From NCBI GenBank assembly GCA_001314715.1, contig LJSV01000027.1:1-33566 (forward strand): a stretch of DNA of 33,566 nucleotides, read 5' to 3'. Positions within the stretch are counted from its first letter, which is position 1. The number at the start of each line of letters is the position of its first letter. Under the pieces are notes generated by a model, which was not told the origin of the DNA, ran no database searches, and was given only the letters and a program-made list of their open reading frames with translations. Positions 694-32,381 of this stretch are shown here, piece after piece. Source of the DNA: Rhodobacteraceae bacterium HLUCCA12. GTDB taxonomy: Bacteria > Pseudomonadota > Alphaproteobacteria > Rhodobacterales > Rhodobacteraceae. Both the position numbers and the translations under genes were made by a program.

Positions 694-1320
694 ATGAGAA
701 CCCATGTCTACGTCGACGGCTACAACCTCTACTACGGTTGCCTCAAGCGGACACCGCACAAGTGGTTGAACCTGCACGCACTTTGCACCGCTCTTATGCC
801 GCGGAACGACATCCGGGCGATACGATATTTCACCGCTCAGGTCAGCGGCACCCCGCATGACCCCGATCAGCCCACCCGCCAGCAGACCTATTTCCGCGCC
901 CTCCGCACGCTGCCGCAGGTTAGTATCCACCTCGGCCATTTCCTGACGCACGAGGTGACGATGCCCGATGCCGCGGACTGGCAGGGCGGACGGTTCACCC
1001 CACGCCGCGTGATGAAGACCGAGGAGAAAGGGTCCGACGTCAACATCGCTACGCATCTGCTGGTCGATGCCTTCGATGACGCTTTCGATGTGGCCGTGAT
1101 CATCAGCAACGACAGCGACTTGAAAGAGCCGATCTCGGTCGTCCGACGCAGGTTTGGCAAGACCATCGGCATACTCAATCCTCAGGCCAGGGTCAGCAGA
1201 GCCCTGCAACCGCTGGCGCATTTCATCAAGCCTATCCGGCCCGGCGCCTTGGCAAACGCACAATTTCCCGCAGTGATGACGGATGGACAGGGTCGGTTTC
1301 ACAAGCCGCCTCGGTGGTGA
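694..1320 (+). CDS. NYN-domain (PIN-like) putative ribonuclease inside the type I R-M locus
   Basis: A 208-aa protein beginning '[15 protein letters not shown]', the signature start of NYN/LabA-type PIN-fold domains, which are known or predicted metal-dependent RNases. Candidate metal-binding acidic residues are D8 (VDGYN), D115 (KGSDVN) and D140/D142 (SNDSDL), in the expected order and spacing. The open frame continues 18 codons upstream, but the ATG at 694 is preferred because a G-rich Shine-Dalgarno-like run (684-689) precedes it and the NYN core begins at once. It lies between hsdS and hsdR, 16 bases before hsdR, so it probably belongs to that operon. The natural substrate is not deducible. 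An RNA-cleaving accessory to the R-M system is inference. Confidence 0.85.
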
Positions 1321-1336
1321 TCAGAAAGAGGTGGGC

Positions 1337-4468
<3,132 letters not shown>

Positions 4469-21621: not shown

Positions 21622-22698
21622 ATGAATTTTTTCAAGTGGTTGTTCGGAAGGGAGAGATCGAGTTCGGCTCAGTCGCCGAGCTCTGCCAATCGGTGGACGG
21701 TCTCAGAGAACGGCAATCCGACATTGGTGGAGGGTTCGACGCGCATAACGATCTTTCAGCAGGATCGCGGTTGGAAATACTGCATTGCGGACGCCGGCGA
21801 TCGGGAAGACCCACACTTCTCCGACGCGTACGCTACCGAAAGAGAGGCGCGGGAAGAAGCGCTGGCCCACTTTCGAGGCGAGCCATCTCGCCACCAGTCC
21901 CTTTCCGCCTCCTCCACTGAGGATCGTCGGCAGCGCTGGGAAGCGCACATCCAGGAACGCTCGCTTACGATCGAGGAGCTGCAGCGATTTCTCGCGGAGC
22001 ACGACGATCTCGGCATCACGGCCCTCCGAAAGCCCGAGGCCAAGATCGCGAGTCATCTGAAGCAGCTGGATTGGCAGATCGCAGAATACCGGAACGCCGG
22101 TGTTTCAGCGAACCTCATTTCTCTGGCTGAGCGACAGAAACCCGCGCTCGCAAGGCTCGCCGAAGAAGTCGCAGCGAGGATCGAAATCAAACAGGCGAAG
22201 CGACCGCCAAAAAGAACGCCTGTGTCGGACAGTCAGCTATCGACCGAGCTATCTCGGAAAGTCGATGATCTGATCCGACTGTTCGCCGACAACCCCGTAG
22301 TGGATCCGAGTGAGGTGGAAAGACGATACAGTCGCGCGATGCGTGACGCCACCACGAAGATGCTCGAAGGCGGAACCACCTACGGTCAGGCATCCGGAGC
22401 GCCGGAGTTCCTGAGCCAGGATGAGGAAACCTTTCGAGCTTTCATGAAGGAGGCTGATCAGGATCTCGCATGGCAATGCAGTACGGTTTCGGACGCGTTC
22501 AAGCGCTATCTCGAAATCGGCGAGACGCCGGCACCTCACTATCCGATGCGTGTGGCCGTGCTTCTCAGCAAGGCCAAGGACCTCGACCGAGAGAAGCAGT
22601 TTTTGGCGGCGTGGTGCATGCATTTTCCATCCGGGAACGGCGTGAAATATGCTGCTCTCGTTGAAAGAGCGAAGAAGGTAGGCGCAATTCCCGCCTGA
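21622..22698 (+). CDS. Unknown 358-aa protein inserted among the tail genes
   Basis: Start 21622 has GGGAGG at 21610-21615. The product begins with a short aromatic helix (MNFFKWLFGR), then a small beta domain (RWTVSENGNPTLVEGSTRI, GWKYCIADAGD). Charged helices follow ('EELQRFLAEHDDLGITALRK', 'LKQLDWQIAEYRNAG', 'VDDLIRLFADN'), then a C-terminal part with 'YPMRVAVLLSKAKDLDREKQ' and 'AWCMHFPSGNGVKYAALVER'. There is no signal peptide, membrane segment or known catalytic motif. It appears less GC-rich than its neighbours and separates two tail genes normally adjacent, so it is probably acquired cargo. I do not recognise a family. Confidence 0.75.
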   Translation: MNFFKWLFGRERSSSAQSPSSANRWTVSENGNPTLVEGSTRITIFQQDRGWKYCIADAGDREDPHFSDAYATEREAREEALAHFRGEPSRHQSLSASSTEDRRQRWEAHIQERSLTIEELQRFLAEHDDLGITALRKPEAKIASHLKQLDWQIAEYRNAGVSANLISLAERQKPALARLAEEVAARIEIKQAKRPPKRTPVSDSQLSTELSRKVDDLIRLFADNPVVDPSEVERRYSRAMRDATTKMLEGGTTYGQASGAPEFLSQDEETFRAFMKEADQDLAWQCSTVSDAFKRYLEIGETPAPHYPMRVAVLLSKAKDLDREKQFLAAWCMHFPSGNGVKYAALVERAKKVGAIPA

Positions 22699-23217: not shown

Positions 23218-24159
23218 ATGGCACGAGCCCAAGGGGCGCGGGCGCTGATGGCGCTTGCGTTCGAGACGACCTATGGAACGCCGCCCGCCAGCGGCTTCAC
23301 CCGCATGCCCTTCGCCAGCACGTCGCTGGGGGCCGAGCAGCCGCTGCTGAACTCGGAGCTTCTCGGCTACGGCCGCGATCCGCTGGCGCCGATCAAGGAC
23401 GCGGTGACGGCCGATGGCGATGTCGTGGTGCCGCTCGACGCTTCAGGCTTCGGCTTCTGGCTGAAGGCGGCCTTCGGCGCGCCGACGACCACGGGCGTGG
23501 AGGCGCCCTATAGCCACGAGTTCCAGTCGGGGTTCTGGACGCTGCCCTCGATGTCGATCGAGACCGGCATGCCCGAGGTGCCGCGATACGCAATGTATTC
23601 CGGCTGCGTGCTCGACCAGATCACCTGGCAGATGCAGCGCTCGGGCCTGCTGACCGCCACGGCGCGGCTGGTCGCGCAGGGCGAGACGGTCGGGACCACA
23701 ACGAGCGCGGGGACACCGGAAGCACTGGAGCTGAAGCGCTTCGGCCATTTCAACGGGTCGATCACCCGCAACGGTACCGCCCTCGGCAATGTGGTCTCGG
23801 CCGAGATCACCTATGCCAACAACCTCGACCGGATCGAGACCATCCGCTCGGACGGCCGCATCGACGGGGCGGACCCGTCCATCGCCGCGCTGACCGGCCG
23901 GATCGAGGTGCGCTTCGCCGACCAGACGCTGGTGACGCAGGCCATCAACGGCGAGCCCTGCGAGATGGAATTCGCCTACGTGCTGCCCTCCGGCGAGAGC
24001 TTCACCTTCACCGTGCACGCCGTTTACCTGCCGCGCCCGCGCATCGAGATTTCCGGGCCGCAGGGCGTGCAGGCCACCTTCGACTGGCAGGCAGCGCGCG
24101 ACAGCGTTGTCGGCCGGATGTGCACCGCCACCCTGATCAACGACATCGAGGAATACTGA
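23218..24159 (+). CDS. Phage tail tube protein
   Basis: A 313-aa protein of two similar-looking beta-rich parts. The first has 'ARALMALAFETTYGTPPASG' and 'VTADGDVVVPLDASGFGFWL'. The second has 'HFNGSITRNGTALGNVVSAE', 'DGADPSIAALTGRIEVRFAD' and 'VQATFDWQAARDS', typical of phage tail tube subunits with a beta-sandwich. It would stack into hexameric rings to make the non-contractile tube. AGGAGA lies 7 bases before the ATG. The stop overlaps the tail chaperone start (TGATG). Confidence 0.92.
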   Translation: MARAQGARALMALAFETTYGTPPASGFTRMPFASTSLGAEQPLLNSELLGYGRDPLAPIKDAVTADGDVVVPLDASGFGFWLKAAFGAPTTTGVEAPYSHEFQSGFWTLPSMSIETGMPEVPRYAMYSGCVLDQITWQMQRSGLLTATARLVAQGETVGTTTSAGTPEALELKRFGHFNGSITRNGTALGNVVSAEITYANNLDRIETIRSDGRIDGADPSIAALTGRIEVRFADQTLVTQAINGEPCEMEFAYVLPSGESFTFTVHAVYLPRPRIEISGPQGVQATFDWQAARDSVVGRMCTATLINDIEEY

Positions 24160-24614
24160 TGCTGACGCTCGACCTGACCAACGCGCCCCGCTGGCATGAC
24201 CTCGCCCCTGGGGTGCGGGTGCAGATGCGCCCGCTCACCACCGCCCTGATGGTGGCGACGCGCAGCGATCCCGCCGTCGAGGCAGTTCCGGAGGAGGCCT
24301 CGGACGAGGAACGCGCCGTCGCTTTCGCCAAGGCGCTTGCGCGGCGGGCGGTGCTCGGCTGGGAGGGCGTCGGCGATGCGGACGGCAAGCCGATCGATCC
24401 CAGCCCCGAGGCCATCGACGCGCTGCTCGACGTCTGGCCGATCTTCGAGTCCTTCCAGCTGACCTACGTCTCGAAGGGCCTGCTGCTGGAACAGGAAAAA
24501 AACGTCTCCGCGCTCTCGCCGAATGGTCCTTCGGCGGGGGCGAGCGATACTGCCAAGCCTGCGCACCCTACGAGGGCCACGAACAAGCCTGCGCGGACTG
24601 CCCGGCGCGGCTGA
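24159..24614 (+). CDS. Tail assembly chaperone, short form (gpG-like)
   Basis: A 151-aa product of the zero frame. Residues 1-112 look like folded tail chaperone (MLTLDLTNAPRWHDLAPGV, 'ALARRAVLGWEGVGDADG', 'AIDALLDVWPIFESFQLTYV'). After codon 115 the sequence turns into low-complexity Ser/Ala/Thr/Pro, as expected for read-through beyond a frameshift site. Position (after tail tube, before tape measure) is that of lambda G. A -1 slip at 24497-24503 yields the longer form. Confidence 0.9.
   Translation: MLTLDLTNAPRWHDLAPGVRVQMRPLTTALMVATRSDPAVEAVPEEASDEERAVAFAKALARRAVLGWEGVGDADGKPIDPSPEAIDALLDVWPIFESFQLTYVSKGLLLEQEKNVSALSPNGPSAGASDTAKPAHPTRATNKPARTARRG
24497..24546 (+). promoter_or_regulatory. 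-1 programmed ribosomal frameshift signal
   Basis: The slippery heptamer A-AAA-AAC (24497-24503) is exactly in phase with the chaperone frame (GAA AAA AAC, codons 113-115). Seven bases later a hairpin starts: CGCCGAA (24517-24523) pairs with TTCGGCG (24530-24536) around a 6-base loop. It is extended by CGCTC (24511-24515) with GAGCG (24542-24546). Slippery site, spacer and hairpin match known -1 signals in tail chaperone genes. Confidence 0.88.
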
Positions 24615-24856
24615 ACCAGCCGCGCACGTATGAGGGCTGGCAGGTCTGGGACCTGGTAGGCCGTCTCGGTGGACAGCTTCGCGTGCTGCCGGCCGCCGTC
24701 GTCGGCTGGGACATGTCGGCGGCGCTGGCGCTCGGTGACGCGCTCGGGATCTCGCCCCTCGCCATGGCCGAACTGCTACCCATCATCGAGGCAGCGATGG
24801 TGCGGAAACTAAACGAAGAACTGGCGGCGAATGGCGGCCCGGGTTTCAGGCCTTGA
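24503..24856 (+). CDS. Tail assembly chaperone, -1 frame extension (gpT-like part of GT fusion)
   Basis: After a -1 slip the ribosome reads 117 more residues, giving a 232-aa fusion. The extension starts RLRALAEWSFGGGERYCQAC, carries a possible zinc site C-x2-C-x9-C-x2-C, then 'YEGWQVWDLVGRLGGQLRVL' and 'ALALGDALGISPLAMAELLP'. It is clearly protein-like, unlike the zero-frame tail. It has no credible start codon and ribosome site of its own, which supports access by frameshifting. The extended form would recruit tube subunits onto the tape measure, as known for lambda gpGT. Its last 11 bases overlap the end of the convergent vapC. Confidence 0.85.
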   Translation, partial: RLRALAEWSFGGGERYCQACAPYEGHEQACADCPARLNQPRTYEGWQVWDLVGRLGGQLRVLPAAVVGWDMSAALALGDALGISPLAMAELLPIIEAAMVRKLNEELAANGGPGFRP

Positions 24857-25226
24857 TCTTCTCGATCAGGGTGACGCCGGCCAGGCCCTCGAAATGCGCG
24901 TCGCAGGTCAGGAGCGTCGCACCCCGCGCGCGGGCGGTTGCGAGGATGATGGCGTCGGCGGTGGCGAGCTTGTGCTCCCGGTAGGCCTCGGCCGCCGCCA
25001 GTGCGATCTCAGTGTCGAGCGGGACGACGTGGCAGACCTGCGTAAAGGCGATGACCTGATCCGCCTTGTCCTCGCCGACCTCGCGGGTCAGCCATTTCGC
25101 CAGTTCGAGCTGCACCATGGTCGGCACCAGCCACTCGCTCTGTTCGGGCAACTGCTCGGCCAGCTTCTCGCCGGTCGGCGAGGCGATGAGCCACTCGATC
25201 CACGCCGACGTGTCGACGAGGATCAT
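24846..25226 (-). CDS. vapC: VapC-family PIN-domain toxin
   Basis: A 126-aa single PIN domain beginning MILVDTSAWIEWL. Metal-binding acidic residues are in place: D5, E41 (QLELAKW), D91 (ATADAIILAT) and D109 (LTCDAHF). VapC toxins are ribonucleases that cut tRNA or rRNA. The ATG at 25226 overlaps the antitoxin stop by one base; longer upstream readings run through the antitoxin gene. It lies opposite the tail genes, between the chaperone extension and the tape measure. Confidence 0.93.
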   Translation of the reverse strand: MILVDTSAWIEWLIASPTGEKLAEQLPEQSEWLVPTMVQLELAKWLTREVGEDKADQVIAFTQVCHVVPLDTEIALAAAEAYREHKLATADAIILATARARGATLLTCDAHFEGLAGVTLIEKIKA

Positions 25227-25438
25227 CAGACCCGGTCCGAGCGGTCGCGATAGTCGGTGGCGGAGGCCCCTCGTGCGAGGCCCTTCAGCGCCTCGCGCTT
25301 CGGCACCGGCACCAAAAGGACGCCCGTGCCCTTCGGGATGAAGGCAAAGGTGAGCCCCGCCTCCCAATGCTGCGCGGTGCGGATCGCCTTGGGAATCGAG
25401 ATCTGGAATTTCGAGGACAGGGTCGCGGTCTCCGCCAT
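25226..25438 (-). CDS. vapB: VapB-like AbrB/SpoVT-type antitoxin
   Basis: A 70-aa protein with the AbrB swapped-hairpin signature near its start (AETATLSSKFQISIPKAIR) and a C-terminal region rich in basic residues (VPVPKREALKGLARGA) that would wrap VapC. There are two possible ATGs, 25444 and 25438. The second is preferred because the AGGG upstream stands 7 bases from it but only one base from the first. The operon order antitoxin then toxin with a one-base overlap is standard. Confidence 0.88.
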   Translation of the reverse strand: MAETATLSSKFQISIPKAIRTAQHWEAGLTFAFIPKGTGVLLVPVPKREALKGLARGASATDYRDRSDRV

Positions 25439-25467
25439 GGTCATACCCTAATTTGATCGATGGCTAA

Positions 25468-25496
25468 AACGTAAGACGCCAATGCAGCGAAAGCAA
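25468..25496 (-). promoter_or_regulatory. Probable vapBC promoter
   Basis: On the minus strand, TTGCTT (25496-25491), a 17-base spacer and TACGTT (25473-25468) lie 30 bases before the preferred vapB start. The gap between vapB and the tape measure gene is only 70 bases, so this is where the promoter must be. Hexamer matches are moderate. Confidence 0.45.
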
Positions 25497-25508
25497 GGAC
25501 TCTGACCG

Positions 25509-27695
25509 ATGGCAGAAAAGCGAGTGTCCGTCCGCCTCGCCGCGGTCGGCGGGCGGCAAGTGCGCGCCGAGTTGGAAGGCGTCGGCGAGGCCGGGTCGCG
25601 CGGCTTCGGACGGCTGAGCCGGGAGATGGAGGCGGCGAACGCCCGGCTCGCGGCCTTCTCGCGGCGGGCCCGGATCGCTCTCAGCGCGGCGGCGGCTGGC
25701 GTCACCACGGCGCTTGCGGCCATGACCCGCGCCACCATTCAGGTGGCGACGCAGACACAGCAGTTCGCGCAGGTGGCCAACACCGCTCCGGAGGCGTTCC
25801 AGCGGTGGGCCGGCGCCTCGCGCACCGTGGGCATCGAACAGGAGAAACTCGCCGACATCCTGAAGGACGTGAACGATCGCGTTGGCGACGTCCTGAGTAC
25901 GGGCGGCGGCCCGATGGCCGACTTCTTCGAGCGGGTGGCGCCCCGGGTCGGCGTCACCGCCGATCAGTTCGCCCGCCTGTCCGGGCCCGAGGCGCTGCAG
26001 CTCTACGTGGACACGTTGGAGCGCGCGGGCCTCAGCCAGCAGGAGATGACCTTCTATCTTGAGACCATGGCCTCGGACGCCACCCGGCTTCTGCCGCTCC
26101 TCAGAAATGGCGGGGCCGAGATGGAACGGCTCGGCGCCCAGGCCGACGACCTCGGCGCAGTGCTGGATGCCAGCGCCATCCAGACGCTGCAGCGCACCCA
26201 GATCGCGCTCGTCGGTGTCTTTCAGGTGTTCGAGGGGATCCGCAACCGGATCGGCGTGGCGCTGGCCCCGGCGGTGGAGTGGCTGGCAAACGCCTTCGTC
26301 AGCCTTGCGTCCGAAGGCGGGGTGCTCAGGGGCGCGCTCGACGCCCTGATCGGCAACATCGGGAGGCTGAGCACCTATGCCGCGACGTTCGCAGGCGTCA
26401 TGGCGGCGCGTTGGGTGGCAGGGTTCGTTGCCGCCGCCATCTCCGTGCGGGGTCTCGCCACGGCGCTGGTCGTCCTGCGCGGTGCGCTGATCCGAACCGG
26501 CATTGGCGCGCTGATCGTCGGCGCGGGCGAAGTCGCCTACCAGTTTACCCGCCTCATCTCCGGTGCAGGCGGGTTCGGCAGTGCGCTGGAATTGATGGGC
26601 AACGTCGCCCGTGCGGTCTGGGGCGGGATCAGGACGACGATGGGTTCGTTCGTGGACGAGTTCCGCGCGCTGCGGGCCGATATCGAGGGTATCTGGACGC
26701 GGCTCATGTCCTTTCTTGCCGGCAAATGGGTCGACTTCCTCGCCATGATCGGGCCTGCCTTCAACGCGGTGGCCGAGCGCATCGGTGCGGATTTCCAGAT
26801 CGACTGGTTCGGGGCGCAGGCTCAAGCCTCGATGCTCGACCACGCCGCCAGCAACGCCGACATCATGGCCGGACTGCTCCGCCAGAGGGCGGCGGACACA
26901 CGCGGAGGCGCCTTCGACGGGGTTCGCGAGGCCGTCACCGCACTAATCGCAGCGGCAAGGGGCTCGGGAGAGGAAACCGAGGACGCGCTCGATTCCGCTG
27001 CCGCCGGAGCCCGGCGTGTGACCGAGGCGCTGGACGCGGCGGAAACCTCGGCGGGCCGGGCCGGCGCCTCTGGGCGCCAGGCCGGGGCCGACATCGCCAC
27101 CGGCGCTGAGGAAGCCCTGACCGGCTGGCGCGCGGTCACCGCCGCTCTTTCGGACTACGCAAGCCGCGCCCGCGAGATCGGTGGCGATATCGGTCAGAGC
27201 CTTGTCGGCGCCTTCCAGTCGGCGGAGAACGCCGTCGGCCAGTTCGTGAAGACCGGTAAGTTGAACTTCCGCGATCTCGTCACCTCGCTGCTGGCCGATC
27301 TCGCCCAGCTCGCGGCGCGACGTTTCATCCTTGGGCCGATCGCAAACGCGCTCTCCGGCGTGTTCTCCGGCGCGGGCGGTATTTTCGCCAACATCCTGCA
27401 CGCGGGCGGCATGGTCGGCTCGGCTGGGCCCTCGAGGATGGTCCCGGCCATGGCCTTCGCCGCTGCGCCCCGGATGCATGGCGGCGGCATGGCTGGCCTC
27501 CGCCATGACGAGGTGCCCGCGATCCTGCAACGCGGCGAGCGCGTTCTGTCGCGACGCGAGGCGCAGAGCTACGGCGCAGGCGGCGGCGTCAACGTCACCA
27601 TCATGGCGCGCGACGCCGAGAGCTTCCGGCAGTCCCGCACGCAGGTCGCCGCGGACATCGCGCGCGCCGTGTCGCTCGGGCGGAGAGGCATGTGA
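25509..27695 (+). CDS. Phage tail tape measure protein, lambda type
   Basis: A 728-aa protein that sets tail length and is ejected with the DNA. It starts with an amphipathic Ala/Arg-rich helical region ('SREMEAANARLAAFSRRARI') and the typical 'FAQVANTAPEAFQRWAGASR'. Hydrophobic helices follow at about residues 290-345 (AATFAGVMAARWVAGFVAAA). The C-terminal lambda-type block has 'FVKTGKLNFRDLVTSLLADL', 'RRFILGPIANALSGVF' and a Gly-rich end 'RHDEVPAILQRGERVLSRRE'. The tape is short, predicting a tail of roughly 100 nm at the usual 1.5 angstrom per residue. The start has only a weak AAGGA. The stop overlaps the next gene. Confidence 0.95.
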   Translation: MAEKRVSVRLAAVGGRQVRAELEGVGEAGSRGFGRLSREMEAANARLAAFSRRARIALSAAAAGVTTALAAMTRATIQVATQTQQFAQVANTAPEAFQRWAGASRTVGIEQEKLADILKDVNDRVGDVLSTGGGPMADFFERVAPRVGVTADQFARLSGPEALQLYVDTLERAGLSQQEMTFYLETMASDATRLLPLLRNGGAEMERLGAQADDLGAVLDASAIQTLQRTQIALVGVFQVFEGIRNRIGVALAPAVEWLANAFVSLASEGGVLRGALDALIGNIGRLSTYAATFAGVMAARWVAGFVAAAISVRGLATALVVLRGALIRTGIGALIVGAGEVAYQFTRLISGAGGFGSALELMGNVARAVWGGIRTTMGSFVDEFRALRADIEGIWTRLMSFLAGKWVDFLAMIGPAFNAVAERIGADFQIDWFGAQAQASMLDHAASNADIMAGLLRQRAADTRGGAFDGVREAVTALIAAARGSGEETEDALDSAAAGARRVTEALDAAETSAGRAGASGRQAGADIATGAEEALTGWRAVTAALSDYASRAREIGGDIGQSLVGAFQSAENAVGQFVKTGKLNFRDLVTSLLADLAQLAARRFILGPIANALSGVFSGAGGIFANILHAGGMVGSAGPSRMVPAMAFAAAPRMHGGGMAGLRHDEVPAILQRGERVLSRREAQSYGAGGGVNVTIMARDAESFRQSRTQVAADIARAVSLGRRGM

Positions 27696-28326: not shown

Positions 28327-28827
28327 TCAGCCCTCAAGACCGAAAGCCCGATGATGAGATATCACGCCTGGCACGCGTGGCCCCGCGAGAGACAGTGCAA
28401 GGACATATTCGCCCGGCACCTTGTCGACGCACAAGGCGGGGTCCGCGGCGAAGCCGAAGCGGCCGTAATAGCCCGGATCGCCCACAAGCACGCAGCCCGC
28501 TGCGCCTTGCGCCTCGAGCCGCGCAAGCGCCGCGCGAACAAGCTCGCCACCGATGCCCTCGCCCTGGCGTTCGGGAATTACCGAAACAGGCCCGAGCGCA
28601 AACCAGCCGCAGGACTTTCCGTCGATCAAAACCTCGGAACAGGCGATGTGACCAACGATCGCGCGACCCTCGACTGCAACGAGGTTATGCGTGAGGGCCC
28701 CTGCCGCGCGCAGCCCCGCAACGATCTGCGCTTCGGTCCCGCTCGAATGCGCGGCGGTAAGGAACGCTTCGGTAATGAGCGCACCGATTTCGGTTTCCTC
28801 GCCCGGTCGTTCCTCGCGAACGTCCAT
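28327..28827 (-). CDS. GNAT-family N-acetyltransferase (YhbS-like), cargo gene
   Basis: A 166-aa single-domain GNAT: 'MDVREERPGEETEIGALITE', 'TEAQIVAGLRAAG', 'LVAVEGRAIVGHIACSEVLI', the acetyl-CoA loop PERQGEGIGGELVRAAL and 'GDPGYYGRFGFAADPAL'. The last block is typical of YhbS-type acetyltransferases. GAGG lies about 6 bases before the ATG. It sits between the distal tail gene and the hub gene on the opposite strand, where related phages have no gene. The substrate is unknown. Confidence 0.9.
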   Translation of the reverse strand: MDVREERPGEETEIGALITEAFLTAAHSSGTEAQIVAGLRAAGALTHNLVAVEGRAIVGHIACSEVLIDGKSCGWFALGPVSVIPERQGEGIGGELVRAALARLEAQGAAGCVLVGDPGYYGRFGFAADPALCVDKVPGEYVLALSLAGPRVPGVISHHRAFGLEG

Positions 28828-30558: not shown

Positions 30559-31953
30559 ATGTCTGTTAGGCGCGCTGCCAATACAATTGAAAACCCCTTT
30601 CTGACCCTGCCGGTCAGACGGCTGTTTCTGTCCAACGCCCTTCCCATGGCGGTGGTCATGTCGACAAGCGGCCTGCTGAACGTGGTCGACGGGATCTTTG
30701 TGGGACGTTTCATCGGTGTCCAAGCCCTTGCCGCCGTCAGCCTGGCCTTTCCGGTGGTCATGCTTTTGACGGCATTGACCACATTGGCAGGTGGAGGCAT
30801 GTCGAGCCTTCTGGCTCGTCATCTGGGCAAGGGATCGCGAAGCGCGGCAGGAGCCGTTTTTGCTGGTGCGCACGGGCTGGTCCTGGCCTTGAGTGCGGTC
30901 GTGATCCTCGGTGCGCTGACGCTGGGCGCTGGCACCGTTTCGTTCCTCGCCGCGGGAAATGAAGCAGTCGCGGAGCCTGCCGGGGATTACCTGCTAATCC
31001 TGATATTGGGTGCACCTGTCCAATTTGGTCTGGGCCTGCACGCTGATGCCCTGCGGAACGAAGGGCGATCAGGGTTCATCGCGCTGCTCTCGGTGCTCGT
31101 AAACCTGCTGAACGTGGCAGCAAACTACATTGCGATCGTGATCCTCGATCTCGGAGTCTCAGGATCAGCGATCGGGACGGTGGCGGCGCAGATAATCGGT
31201 CTGGCGCTGCTTCTAGTGGTGCGGACACGCAACCCCGCTCTCTTGCCACTCAGTGCGATCTGGCACGCTAGTTGGCTGACCGAATGGCGGCAGATCCTCT
31301 CATTGGGCCTGCCATTGTGCCTGAGTTTCGTCGGAATGGCGCTCGTGGCCAGCACCGTCCTTCTTGCCATCGGTAACACCGCAGCGCATCACGACACCTA
31401 TGTCGCAGCCTACGGGGTTGTGACGCGCATCCTTGGTCTGGCTTTTCTGCCGCAAATGGCCCTCGCGTTGACCACCCAGAGTATCACCGGGAACAATGTC
31501 GGCGCAGGCAGAATGGATCGGGCACACGCGGCTCTGCGGCTCGCCATAGGGTGCGCGTTCCTGTGGTGCCTCGGCGTTGCGCTGGCAGGTATGCTCGCAG
31601 GTGAAACGCTGGGCGCGCTGTTTTCCGAAGATCAGGAAGTCGTCACTGCGGTTGGCGCAATCATACGTCCCATGACAGCGCTTTATGCCGTCAGCGGGCC
31701 GATCCTCGTCATTGCCATGCATTTTCAGGCGATGGGGCATCCGTTGCGAACGGCAGTGCTGACCTTGGTGAAACCCTGGCTTCTGACGCCTGTGCTCGTC
31801 ATCGCTCTGAACGCGCACTCCGGGCTTCAAGGCCTTTGGTTTGCGTTTCCAGGCGCAGATGCCGCCCTGCTTCTTGTGGCTCTGACGATCGTTTTTCGGG
31901 GCCGCGTATTCGACGCAACCCCCACGACACTGCGCCCCAAGGAGGGATCATGA
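30559..31953 (+). CDS. MATE-family efflux transporter, cargo gene
   Basis: A 464-aa inner-membrane protein with about 12 hydrophobic segments. MATE features include 'NVVDGIFVGRFIGVQALAAV' in the first helices, 'HADALRNEGRSGFIALLSVL' in the middle and 'ALTTQSITGNNVGAGRMDRA' at the start of the second half, the internal repeat of the family. These proteins expel cationic drugs or metabolites using Na+ or H+ gradients; the substrate is unknown. TTTGGAGGAG precedes the ATG. Phage tail genes stand on both sides, so this is acquired cargo. Its stop overlaps the glyoxalase-like start. Confidence 0.93.
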   Translation: MSVRRAANTIENPFLTLPVRRLFLSNALPMAVVMSTSGLLNVVDGIFVGRFIGVQALAAVSLAFPVVMLLTALTTLAGGGMSSLLARHLGKGSRSAAGAVFAGAHGLVLALSAVVILGALTLGAGTVSFLAAGNEAVAEPAGDYLLILILGAPVQFGLGLHADALRNEGRSGFIALLSVLVNLLNVAANYIAIVILDLGVSGSAIGTVAAQIIGLALLLVVRTRNPALLPLSAIWHASWLTEWRQILSLGLPLCLSFVGMALVASTVLLAIGNTAAHHDTYVAAYGVVTRILGLAFLPQMALALTTQSITGNNVGAGRMDRAHAALRLAIGCAFLWCLGVALAGMLAGETLGALFSEDQEVVTAVGAIIRPMTALYAVSGPILVIAMHFQAMGHPLRTAVLTLVKPWLLTPVLVIALNAHSGLQGLWFAFPGADAALLLVALTIVFRGRVFDATPTTLRPKEGS

Positions 31954-32381
31954 CTCAGCCATCGCTCGATACCGTCAAGGCGCACGCCAAGGCCCTCCGG
32001 CGGGCACTGCAAGCCGGGGGTTCTGTCGTCAGTCATGCGCAGGCCCTTGAGCTGATAGCCGGGCAACACGGGGCAAGAGACTGGAACACGCTGCATGCCC
32101 GGCTCACCCAACGGAACGCGCCACCCGAACTTGCCCTCGGCGATCGGGTGGCCGGGTCTTACCTTGGCCAGGCCTACACCGGCGAAATCACTGCCCTGTC
32201 AGGACCGGCAGAGCATCGTCATGTGGAGATAAAGCTTGACCAGCCGATTGATACCGTCCGGTTTGAAAGCTTCTCGAACTGGCGCCACCGCATCCGAGGA
32301 ACCCTTGATGTGGACGGTCGCAGCCATCGCAAGACGTCGGATGGCGTGCCGCATCTGATAGTGGAAAAGGCACCTCTCTGA
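31950..32381 (+). CDS. Glyoxalase-superfamily-like protein with short helical domain
   Basis: A 143-aa protein. The N-terminal 55 residues (DTVKAHAKALRRALQAGGSV, then 'SHAQALELIAGQHGARDWNT') are the small helical module I recall in proteins labelled 'glyoxalase superfamily'. The remainder is beta-rich (LGDRVAGSYLGQAYTGEITA, 'HRHVEIKLDQPIDTVRFESF'), and no glyoxalase metal site is evident. The ATG at 31950 has AAGGAGGG upstream and overlaps the MATE stop, so the pair is co-translated. No catalytic role can be read. Confidence 0.75.
   Translation: MTQPSLDTVKAHAKALRRALQAGGSVVSHAQALELIAGQHGARDWNTLHARLTQRNAPPELALGDRVAGSYLGQAYTGEITALSGPAEHRHVEIKLDQPIDTVRFESFSNWRHRIRGTLDVDGRSHRKTSDGVPHLIVEKAPL

Follow-up and report, generated by a model that had tools for sequence, protein, structure and literature searches.

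The window, which is the whole stretch of 33,566 nucleotides that was analysed, contains a tail gene cluster in the order tail tube, G, T and tape measure (Table 1). The chaperone reading frames G and T are thus flanked by the tail tube (major tail) gene on one side and by the tape measure gene on the other, and portal, terminase, capsid and further tail genes are found elsewhere in the window. The G open reading frame starts at an ATG at position 24159, which overlaps the stop codon of the tail tube gene, and ends with a stop codon at 24612-24614. By PHROG profile search it was matched to phrog_313, "Tail assembly chaperone" (E 2.8e-25), and its product gave no match in Pfam and NCBIfam, both searched up to E 1. 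The -1 frame stays open between 24200 and a TGA at 24854-24856, and a shift into it at the heptamer listed in Table 1 would yield a GT product of 232 amino acids, of which 117 residues are new with respect to the short form of 151 amino acids. This arrangement agrees with the original prediction, which had been made from the sequence of the window and had announced an A-AAA-AAC heptamer in phase with G, a 7-base spacer, a -1 frame open to 24856 and products of 151 and 232 residues, the longer one carrying the 117-residue extension; each of these elements was recovered by reading the open frames.

Table 1. Positions of the features of the G/T locus and of the two flanking tail genes
Feature	Positions	Strand	Evidence
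Tail tube protein gene (context)	23218-24159	+	PF18906, E 7.7e-60
G-like tail assembly chaperone ORF (0 frame, 151 aa)	24159-24614	+	phrog_313 match
Slippery heptamer A_AAA_AAC	24497-24503	+	In phase with G; same place in relatives
7-nt spacer	24504-24510	+	Between heptamer and stem
T-like extension (-1 frame, 117 codons and stop)	24503-24856	+	ORF reading, homologue conservation
Probable stimulatory hairpin (13-bp stem 24511-24523/24530-24542, 6-nt loop 24524-24529)	24511-24542	+	Folding, homologue pairing
CxxC...CxxC motif (Cys 17, 20, 30 and 33 of T)	24551-24601	+	Four Cys in 187/187 distinct loci
Pfam DUF7697 (PF24752) / phrog_11212 stretch of T	24683-24838	+	E 7.8e-24; E 9.5e-21
Tape measure protein gene, lambda-type (context)	25509-27695	+	PF09718, E 7.4e-20; phrog_8462, E 1.8e-103

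Several other genes can be observed around this cluster. A pair encoding a VapC-like PIN toxin and an AbrB-like antitoxin occupies positions 24846-25444 of the minus strand, in the interval from the GT stop to the tape measure gene, and its last codons overlap the end of T. In the 237 loci compared below, VapC and AbrB matches were obtained in 76 and 75, respectively. T abuts or overlaps the tape measure gene in 135 of the 212 loci with a tape measure match, and a gap of 634-887 bases separates them in 74, the window included. Apparent insertions in the tail cluster encode a GNAT acetyltransferase (28327-28827, minus), a MATE transporter (30559-31953, plus), a glyoxalase-superfamily protein (31950-32381, plus) and a 357-residue ORF without Pfam match (21625-22698, plus). 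A type I restriction HsdR gene is located at the left side of the window (1283-4468).

Conservation of the slip site and of the downstream stem

Homologues were collected by similarity to T or to its DUF7697 domain. By profile search, DUF7697 was present in 90 of the 394 genomes sampled from the host family and in 14 of 398 genomes of the host phylum (13 above the cut-off, the one below being a false hit), the latter matches coming also from other families of the same class and from another class. In the host order, 32 of 196 genomes encode the T protein, which was also found in 14 phage records and 3 plasmid records, and a relative was encoded in 402 of 407 candidate stretches from viral contigs and in 191 of 259 from named genomes. 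These tallies count the window's own genome wherever that genome was searched. Loci were then taken from the best 80 of the 402 viral-contig relatives, the best 80 of the 191 named-genome relatives and, among the family-sample DUF7697 matches listed, 30 loci plus 40 more that come mostly from the weaker half. These loci share ancestry, and some occur in more than one collection; because they were chosen through T or DUF7697, the frequency of G without T cannot be read from them. Selection and cysteine counts are given for 187 distinct loci, window included, after removal of the locus L218, of loci without a T stop, of those in which T starts before position 130 and of duplicates.

The heptamer taken alone is no rarity, since AAAAAAC occurs once in the window for 0.78 occurrences expected, and the case therefore rests on the homologues. 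The first set comprised 205 sequences, of which 8 without T match (L001-L008) came from a pattern search; the 197 places with a T match carry AAAAAAC (192), GGGAAAC (2), AAAAAAA (2) or AAAAAAT (1), and at two of the AAAAAAC places, L109 and L172, the heptamer is not in phase with G. A second set of 40 loci, mostly weaker DUF7697 matches, gave 36 AAAAAAC, 2 GGGAAAC, 1 AAAAAAA and a single miss, L218, a remnant in which the end of T is fused to tail tube sequence and G is absent. In the third set, made of 27 loci from the phylum search, 22 AAAAAAC, 1 GGGAAAC and 1 AAAAAAA were counted; the three misses are L248 (the same place as L218), L256 (a false hit) and L270 (a fragment). This set overlaps the others, L247 being the window itself and L248, L259 and L260 places already present in the second set. 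The G_GGA_AAC lineages are two Rhodobacter phages, L212, L213 and L252. A second G/T pair is also present in the genome of the window (L205, G000:C50:92200-93600); its T is 60% identical over 105 residues and A_AAA_AAC lies at the same codon.

A slippery heptamer lying in phase towards the 3' end of G is thus conserved. Among the 187 distinct loci, the first slip codon is AAA in 184 and GGA in 3, the second is AAC in 184, AAA in 2 and AAT in 1, and AAG was found at neither position. Synonymous difference drops from 0.37 over the 38 codons ending there to 0.00 at AAA and to 0.028 at AAC; in the T frame it amounts to 0.18 over the hairpin codons versus 0.41-0.48 beyond. Heptamer conservation and suppression of synonymous change, the check proposed with the original prediction, are therefore both observed. 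In Escherichia coli, A_AAA_AAC is less shifty than A_AAA_AAG, according to the available text of PMC5009743, which counts somewhat against the frameshift reading; the absence of AAG among the 187 loci would fit with a need for modest shifting. The idea of two lysine tRNAs, in which a tRNA with anticodon CUU renders AAG non-shifty, was also considered and found no support: a scan of the host genome gave 41 tRNA matches with one Lys gene, whose anticodon is UUU. Since a Tyr tRNA and a GAU-anticodon Ile tRNA are missing from this list, it is incomplete and a CUU Lys gene may still exist. The available text of PMC10885494, PMC11409702, PMC10783043 and PMC5537653 holds nothing bearing on this slip site.

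The existence of a hairpin 3' of the heptamer was borne out and its shape was revised. The original prediction had drawn a two-part hairpin over 24511-24546, in which 82.6% of the cells are paired in the homologues (71.1% in the outer helix); the most stable fold is instead a continuous 13-bp stem closing a UGGUCC loop, which is paired in 95.7% of the cells in 99 unique sequences and was retained in its place. When one arm was slid by up to 3 bases as a control, the paired fraction fell to 44-59%. The pair 24521-24532 is formed in the predicted folds of 94 of the 99 sequences. Natural sequences also fold more stably than sequences randomised synonymously in the T frame, with a mean z of -2.6 and negative values in 99/99 (60 randomisations each). 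When 12 loci were randomised 400 times, 10 of them lay at z -2.26 to -4.03, with the window at -2.33, and L240 (z 0.05) and L126 (z -0.49) displayed no extra stability. The window hairpin reaches z -1.76 against dinucleotide shuffles, and 10 of 12 further loci were more stable than random (z -1.3 to -3.0), L254 and L264 among them with a differently placed hairpin. Six of these 12 come from the other class and comprise four with strong values (z -1.7 to -2.9) and the two without a clear excess of stability, L255 (-0.06) and L268 (-0.69). The stem shows little covariation: G-C to G-U changes predominate and 2 pairs are doubly changed, a count reached by 86 of 500 shuffles. The pairing and covariation scores were beaten or matched by just 0 and 2 of 500 shuffles, respectively. 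A search of Rfam with positions 23900-25600, up to E 1, gave no match.

These data bear on whether the slip belongs to the ribosome or to the polymerase. A run of seven A is present at 24496-24502, and RNA polymerase might slip on it to produce mRNAs with an inserted or deleted A, from which G and T would be joined by ordinary translation, a process that operates in Thermus dnaX according to the part of PMC5009743 available. This explanation is nevertheless very improbable here, as some lineages carry G_GGA_AAC, where A runs do not exceed three and which yet is a tandem-slip heptamer, as the stem is conserved 7 nt downstream, and as the rule maintained is X_XXY_YYZ in phase. Slippage by the ribosome is preferred over slippage during transcription precisely because the site varies only within this rule, G_GGA_AAC included, and is followed by a stem.

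Reading frame, start codons and selection in the extension

T lies in the -1 phase of G at 234 of the 237 places. The three exceptions are L218, which has no G, and L109 and L172, where six A instead of seven, around position 3001, place T in the +1 phase of G; this case represents either a natural loss or a sequencing error. L109 and L172 are identical sequences, from one genome (Thalassorhabdomicrobium marinisediminis) present in two collections.

Selection was estimated as dN/dS from 4000 random pairs of the 187 distinct loci. In the T frame, values of 0.30 (codons 1-13), 0.32 (14-36), 0.15 (37-60) and 0.24 (61-107) were obtained, so that the whole extension falls within 0.15-0.32, in agreement with the conserved -1 frame protein anticipated by the original prediction. 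Past the slip site, the 0 frame of G gave 1.81 and 1.67, as expected if constraint acts on the other frame alone. The extension frame is thus under purifying selection from its first codon and the competing 0 frame is not. The distance from the slip to the G stop is 30 codons in 132 of the 237 loci, 36 codons in 84 and a single codon in 5, and these five loci still retain T. Such a variable and sometimes early G stop, combined with the persistence of T, indicates that the 0-frame tail looks dispensable and that T does not.

The second ORF overlaps G in the -1 frame and has no start of its own in the window: between the last upstream stop and the GTG at 24683, no ATG, GTG or TTG is present in that frame, and this GTG, the first potential start, is deep within the extension. 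The same holds for many homologues, as the T frame is free of start codons between the last stop and T codon 58 in 112 of the 237 loci. The remaining loci have scattered ones; an ATG, GTG or TTG upstream of the slip site or within about 20 codons after it was detected in 35 of the 237 loci, at differing places. These 35 loci count to some extent against the frameshift reading; given the overall pattern, a separate start codon for T, which the original prediction had denied, is nevertheless unlikely.

The corresponding alternative is that T is a separate small protein started within the -1 frame, for instance at the GTG at 24683 where the DUF7697 match begins, and that the 0-frame run into T is due to chance. 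Both DUF7697 and phrog_11212 do begin near T residues 59-61, and a second ORF beginning inside T is annotated in two phage records. Against this, purifying selection in the T frame extends to residues 1-36 of T, which contain four invariant cysteines, the GTG is kept in just 84 of the 187 distinct loci, and a potential start within the first 36 codons exists in 21 of the 187, the place of the first one varying from locus to locus. An internal start is on these grounds even more improbable than a slip of the polymerase. The least credible reading of all, in which the -1 frame is open by chance in GC-rich DNA or belongs to a decayed gene, can point to a frame that is also open upstream of the site, from 24200, and to the 0.78 expected heptamers, but it is contradicted by a frame, protein and site conserved in more than 200 places (some being the same genome in two collections), by relatives outside the host family, both within the class and in another one, and by the purifying selection acting on the -1 frame. 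An independent start for the extension and an unconserved slippery site were thus both looked for among the homologues, and programmed frameshifting was not refuted by either.

The probable frameshift-encoded protein

In the window the cysteines of the extension are arranged as CxxC-x9-CxxC, and the length of the loop between the two pairs varies among loci. The original prediction had described this part as a cysteine or zinc knuckle. The cysteines stand, being present in all distinct loci, and a CCHC knuckle is ruled out, since the four cysteines are invariant and His 26, within the loop of the motif, is not conserved among the 187 loci. The module is hence of the Cys4 type and may bind zinc.

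The C-terminal half, about residues 59-112 of T, is covered by DUF7697 and phrog_11212, neither of which carries a function label, and the cysteine part remains outside both models. With 83.8 bits against a curated cut-off of 27, the match to DUF7697 is well within the family. These models begin around T residue 60 probably because annotated ORFs start inside T, and they miss the N-terminal cysteine part, which is apparently reached only by frameshifting. The original claim that gene callers would miss the extension holds for these two families, which cover the C-terminal half alone, and for two phage records in which the C-terminal part is called as a separate ORF; it fails for two Rhodobacter phage records, in which the joined product is annotated. 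Weak matches to phrog_680 (tape measure protein) were also noticed in 34 of 71 T proteins, with a best E of 6.8e-5.

Structural comparison gave little. AlphaFold models are of low confidence, with a mean pLDDT of 59.9 for T and 52.0 for G, and fold searches of the PDB with these models returned nothing at E <= 0.001. A sequence search of solved structures yielded three matches for T, the best at E 0.086, and none for G. DUF7697 was not found in the literature searched.

A probable G/GT-type chaperone pair and its relation to known systems

Taken together, the locus almost certainly contains a -1 programmed frameshift in a tail assembly chaperone pair of the lambda G/GT type, belonging to a long-tailed prophage, as judged from sequence comparison. 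The G/T reading made originally is indeed supported by the phrog_313 match, by the tail tube and tape measure neighbours and by conservation. The majority of ribosomes would read G through to its stop at 24612-24614 and release the 151-residue form. A minority, held by the 13-bp hairpin located 7 nt downstream, would slip one base back on A_AAA_AAC, with tRNA-Lys on AAA and tRNA-Asn on AAC as slip partners, and would go on in the -1 frame to produce GT (232 residues), presumably with low efficiency. If the pair works as in lambda, both forms may bind the tape measure protein through their shared G part, and T, present only in the minor form and made of the invariant and putatively zinc-binding Cys4 module followed by the DUF7697 domain, may recruit tail tube subunits.

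Phage lambda shares with the present locus the G/T gene order and a T without its own start, and its slip site is G_GGA_AAG. The lambda pair arises from a low-level -1 shift close to the end of G, which yields chaperones of two lengths; the tape measure protein is bound through G and the tail tube through T (available text of PMC5009743), much as proposed here. Unlike in lambda, the heptamer is A_AAA_AAC, a strong downstream hairpin is present and T consists of Cys4 and DUF7697 parts, the proteins having been set beside those of lambda by description only. The G-T heptamers G_GGA_AAC and A_AAA_AAC are the same two as those listed in the same source for the haloarchaeal siphoviruses HCTV-1 and HCTV-2 (PMC5009743), which have archaeal hosts, and this likeness is drawn from the heptamers alone. 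A_AAA_AAC is also among the consensus heptamers of a large survey which, in its available part, gives 6% and 7% frameshifting for two genes whose chaperone cluster resembles a phage HK97 protein (PMC3711429).

The closest annotated relatives are the phages of Rhodobacter capsulatus, 11 records of which encode a homologous T (46.5% identity). In the RcKai and RcBaka records, G and a joined GT coding sequence are annotated at the same place; a join of this type covers 722 nt with one base read twice, that is 241 codons, and fits a -1 join. The other nine records list two tail assembly chaperones there. RcKai and RcBaka differ from the window by their slip site, G_GGA_AAC, and by a GT-tape measure interval that lacks the toxin-antitoxin pair. 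The available text of the paper on these phages describes a programmed frameshift as usual in tail assembly chaperone genes and states that clear evidence for it is lacking in phage RcZahn (PMC8601537).

The G/GT pair with a joined coding sequence in R. capsulatus phages and the use of A_AAA_AAC for G-T frameshifting are thus already on record. The additions made here are a function for DUF7697, a Cys4 module apparently confined to the frameshift product, and a conserved stem. DUF7697 and phrog_11212, a family without assigned function, would accordingly receive a likely one, the end of a frameshifted chaperone. A wider proposal is put forward tentatively, as somewhat less probable than its opposite: DUF7697 might generally be a tail chaperone end made only by frameshifting. 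In this view a Cys4 module that binds zinc would be found in the minor product alone, and recruiting the tail tube would thereby require the slip together with a metal-stabilised adaptor. The bacterial A_AAA_AAC site, well conserved and followed by a clear stem, is moreover useful for asking why AAC has been kept over AAG, and a G/T family of this size can be of use to annotation tools. Among the phage homologues, Nostoc phage Nsp-JY21 (L041) and Synechococcus phage Sc-Yong805-1 (L042) show equal match figures and an equal gene layout; their tail genes resemble those of alphaproteobacterial prophages, and their host labels deserve a check.
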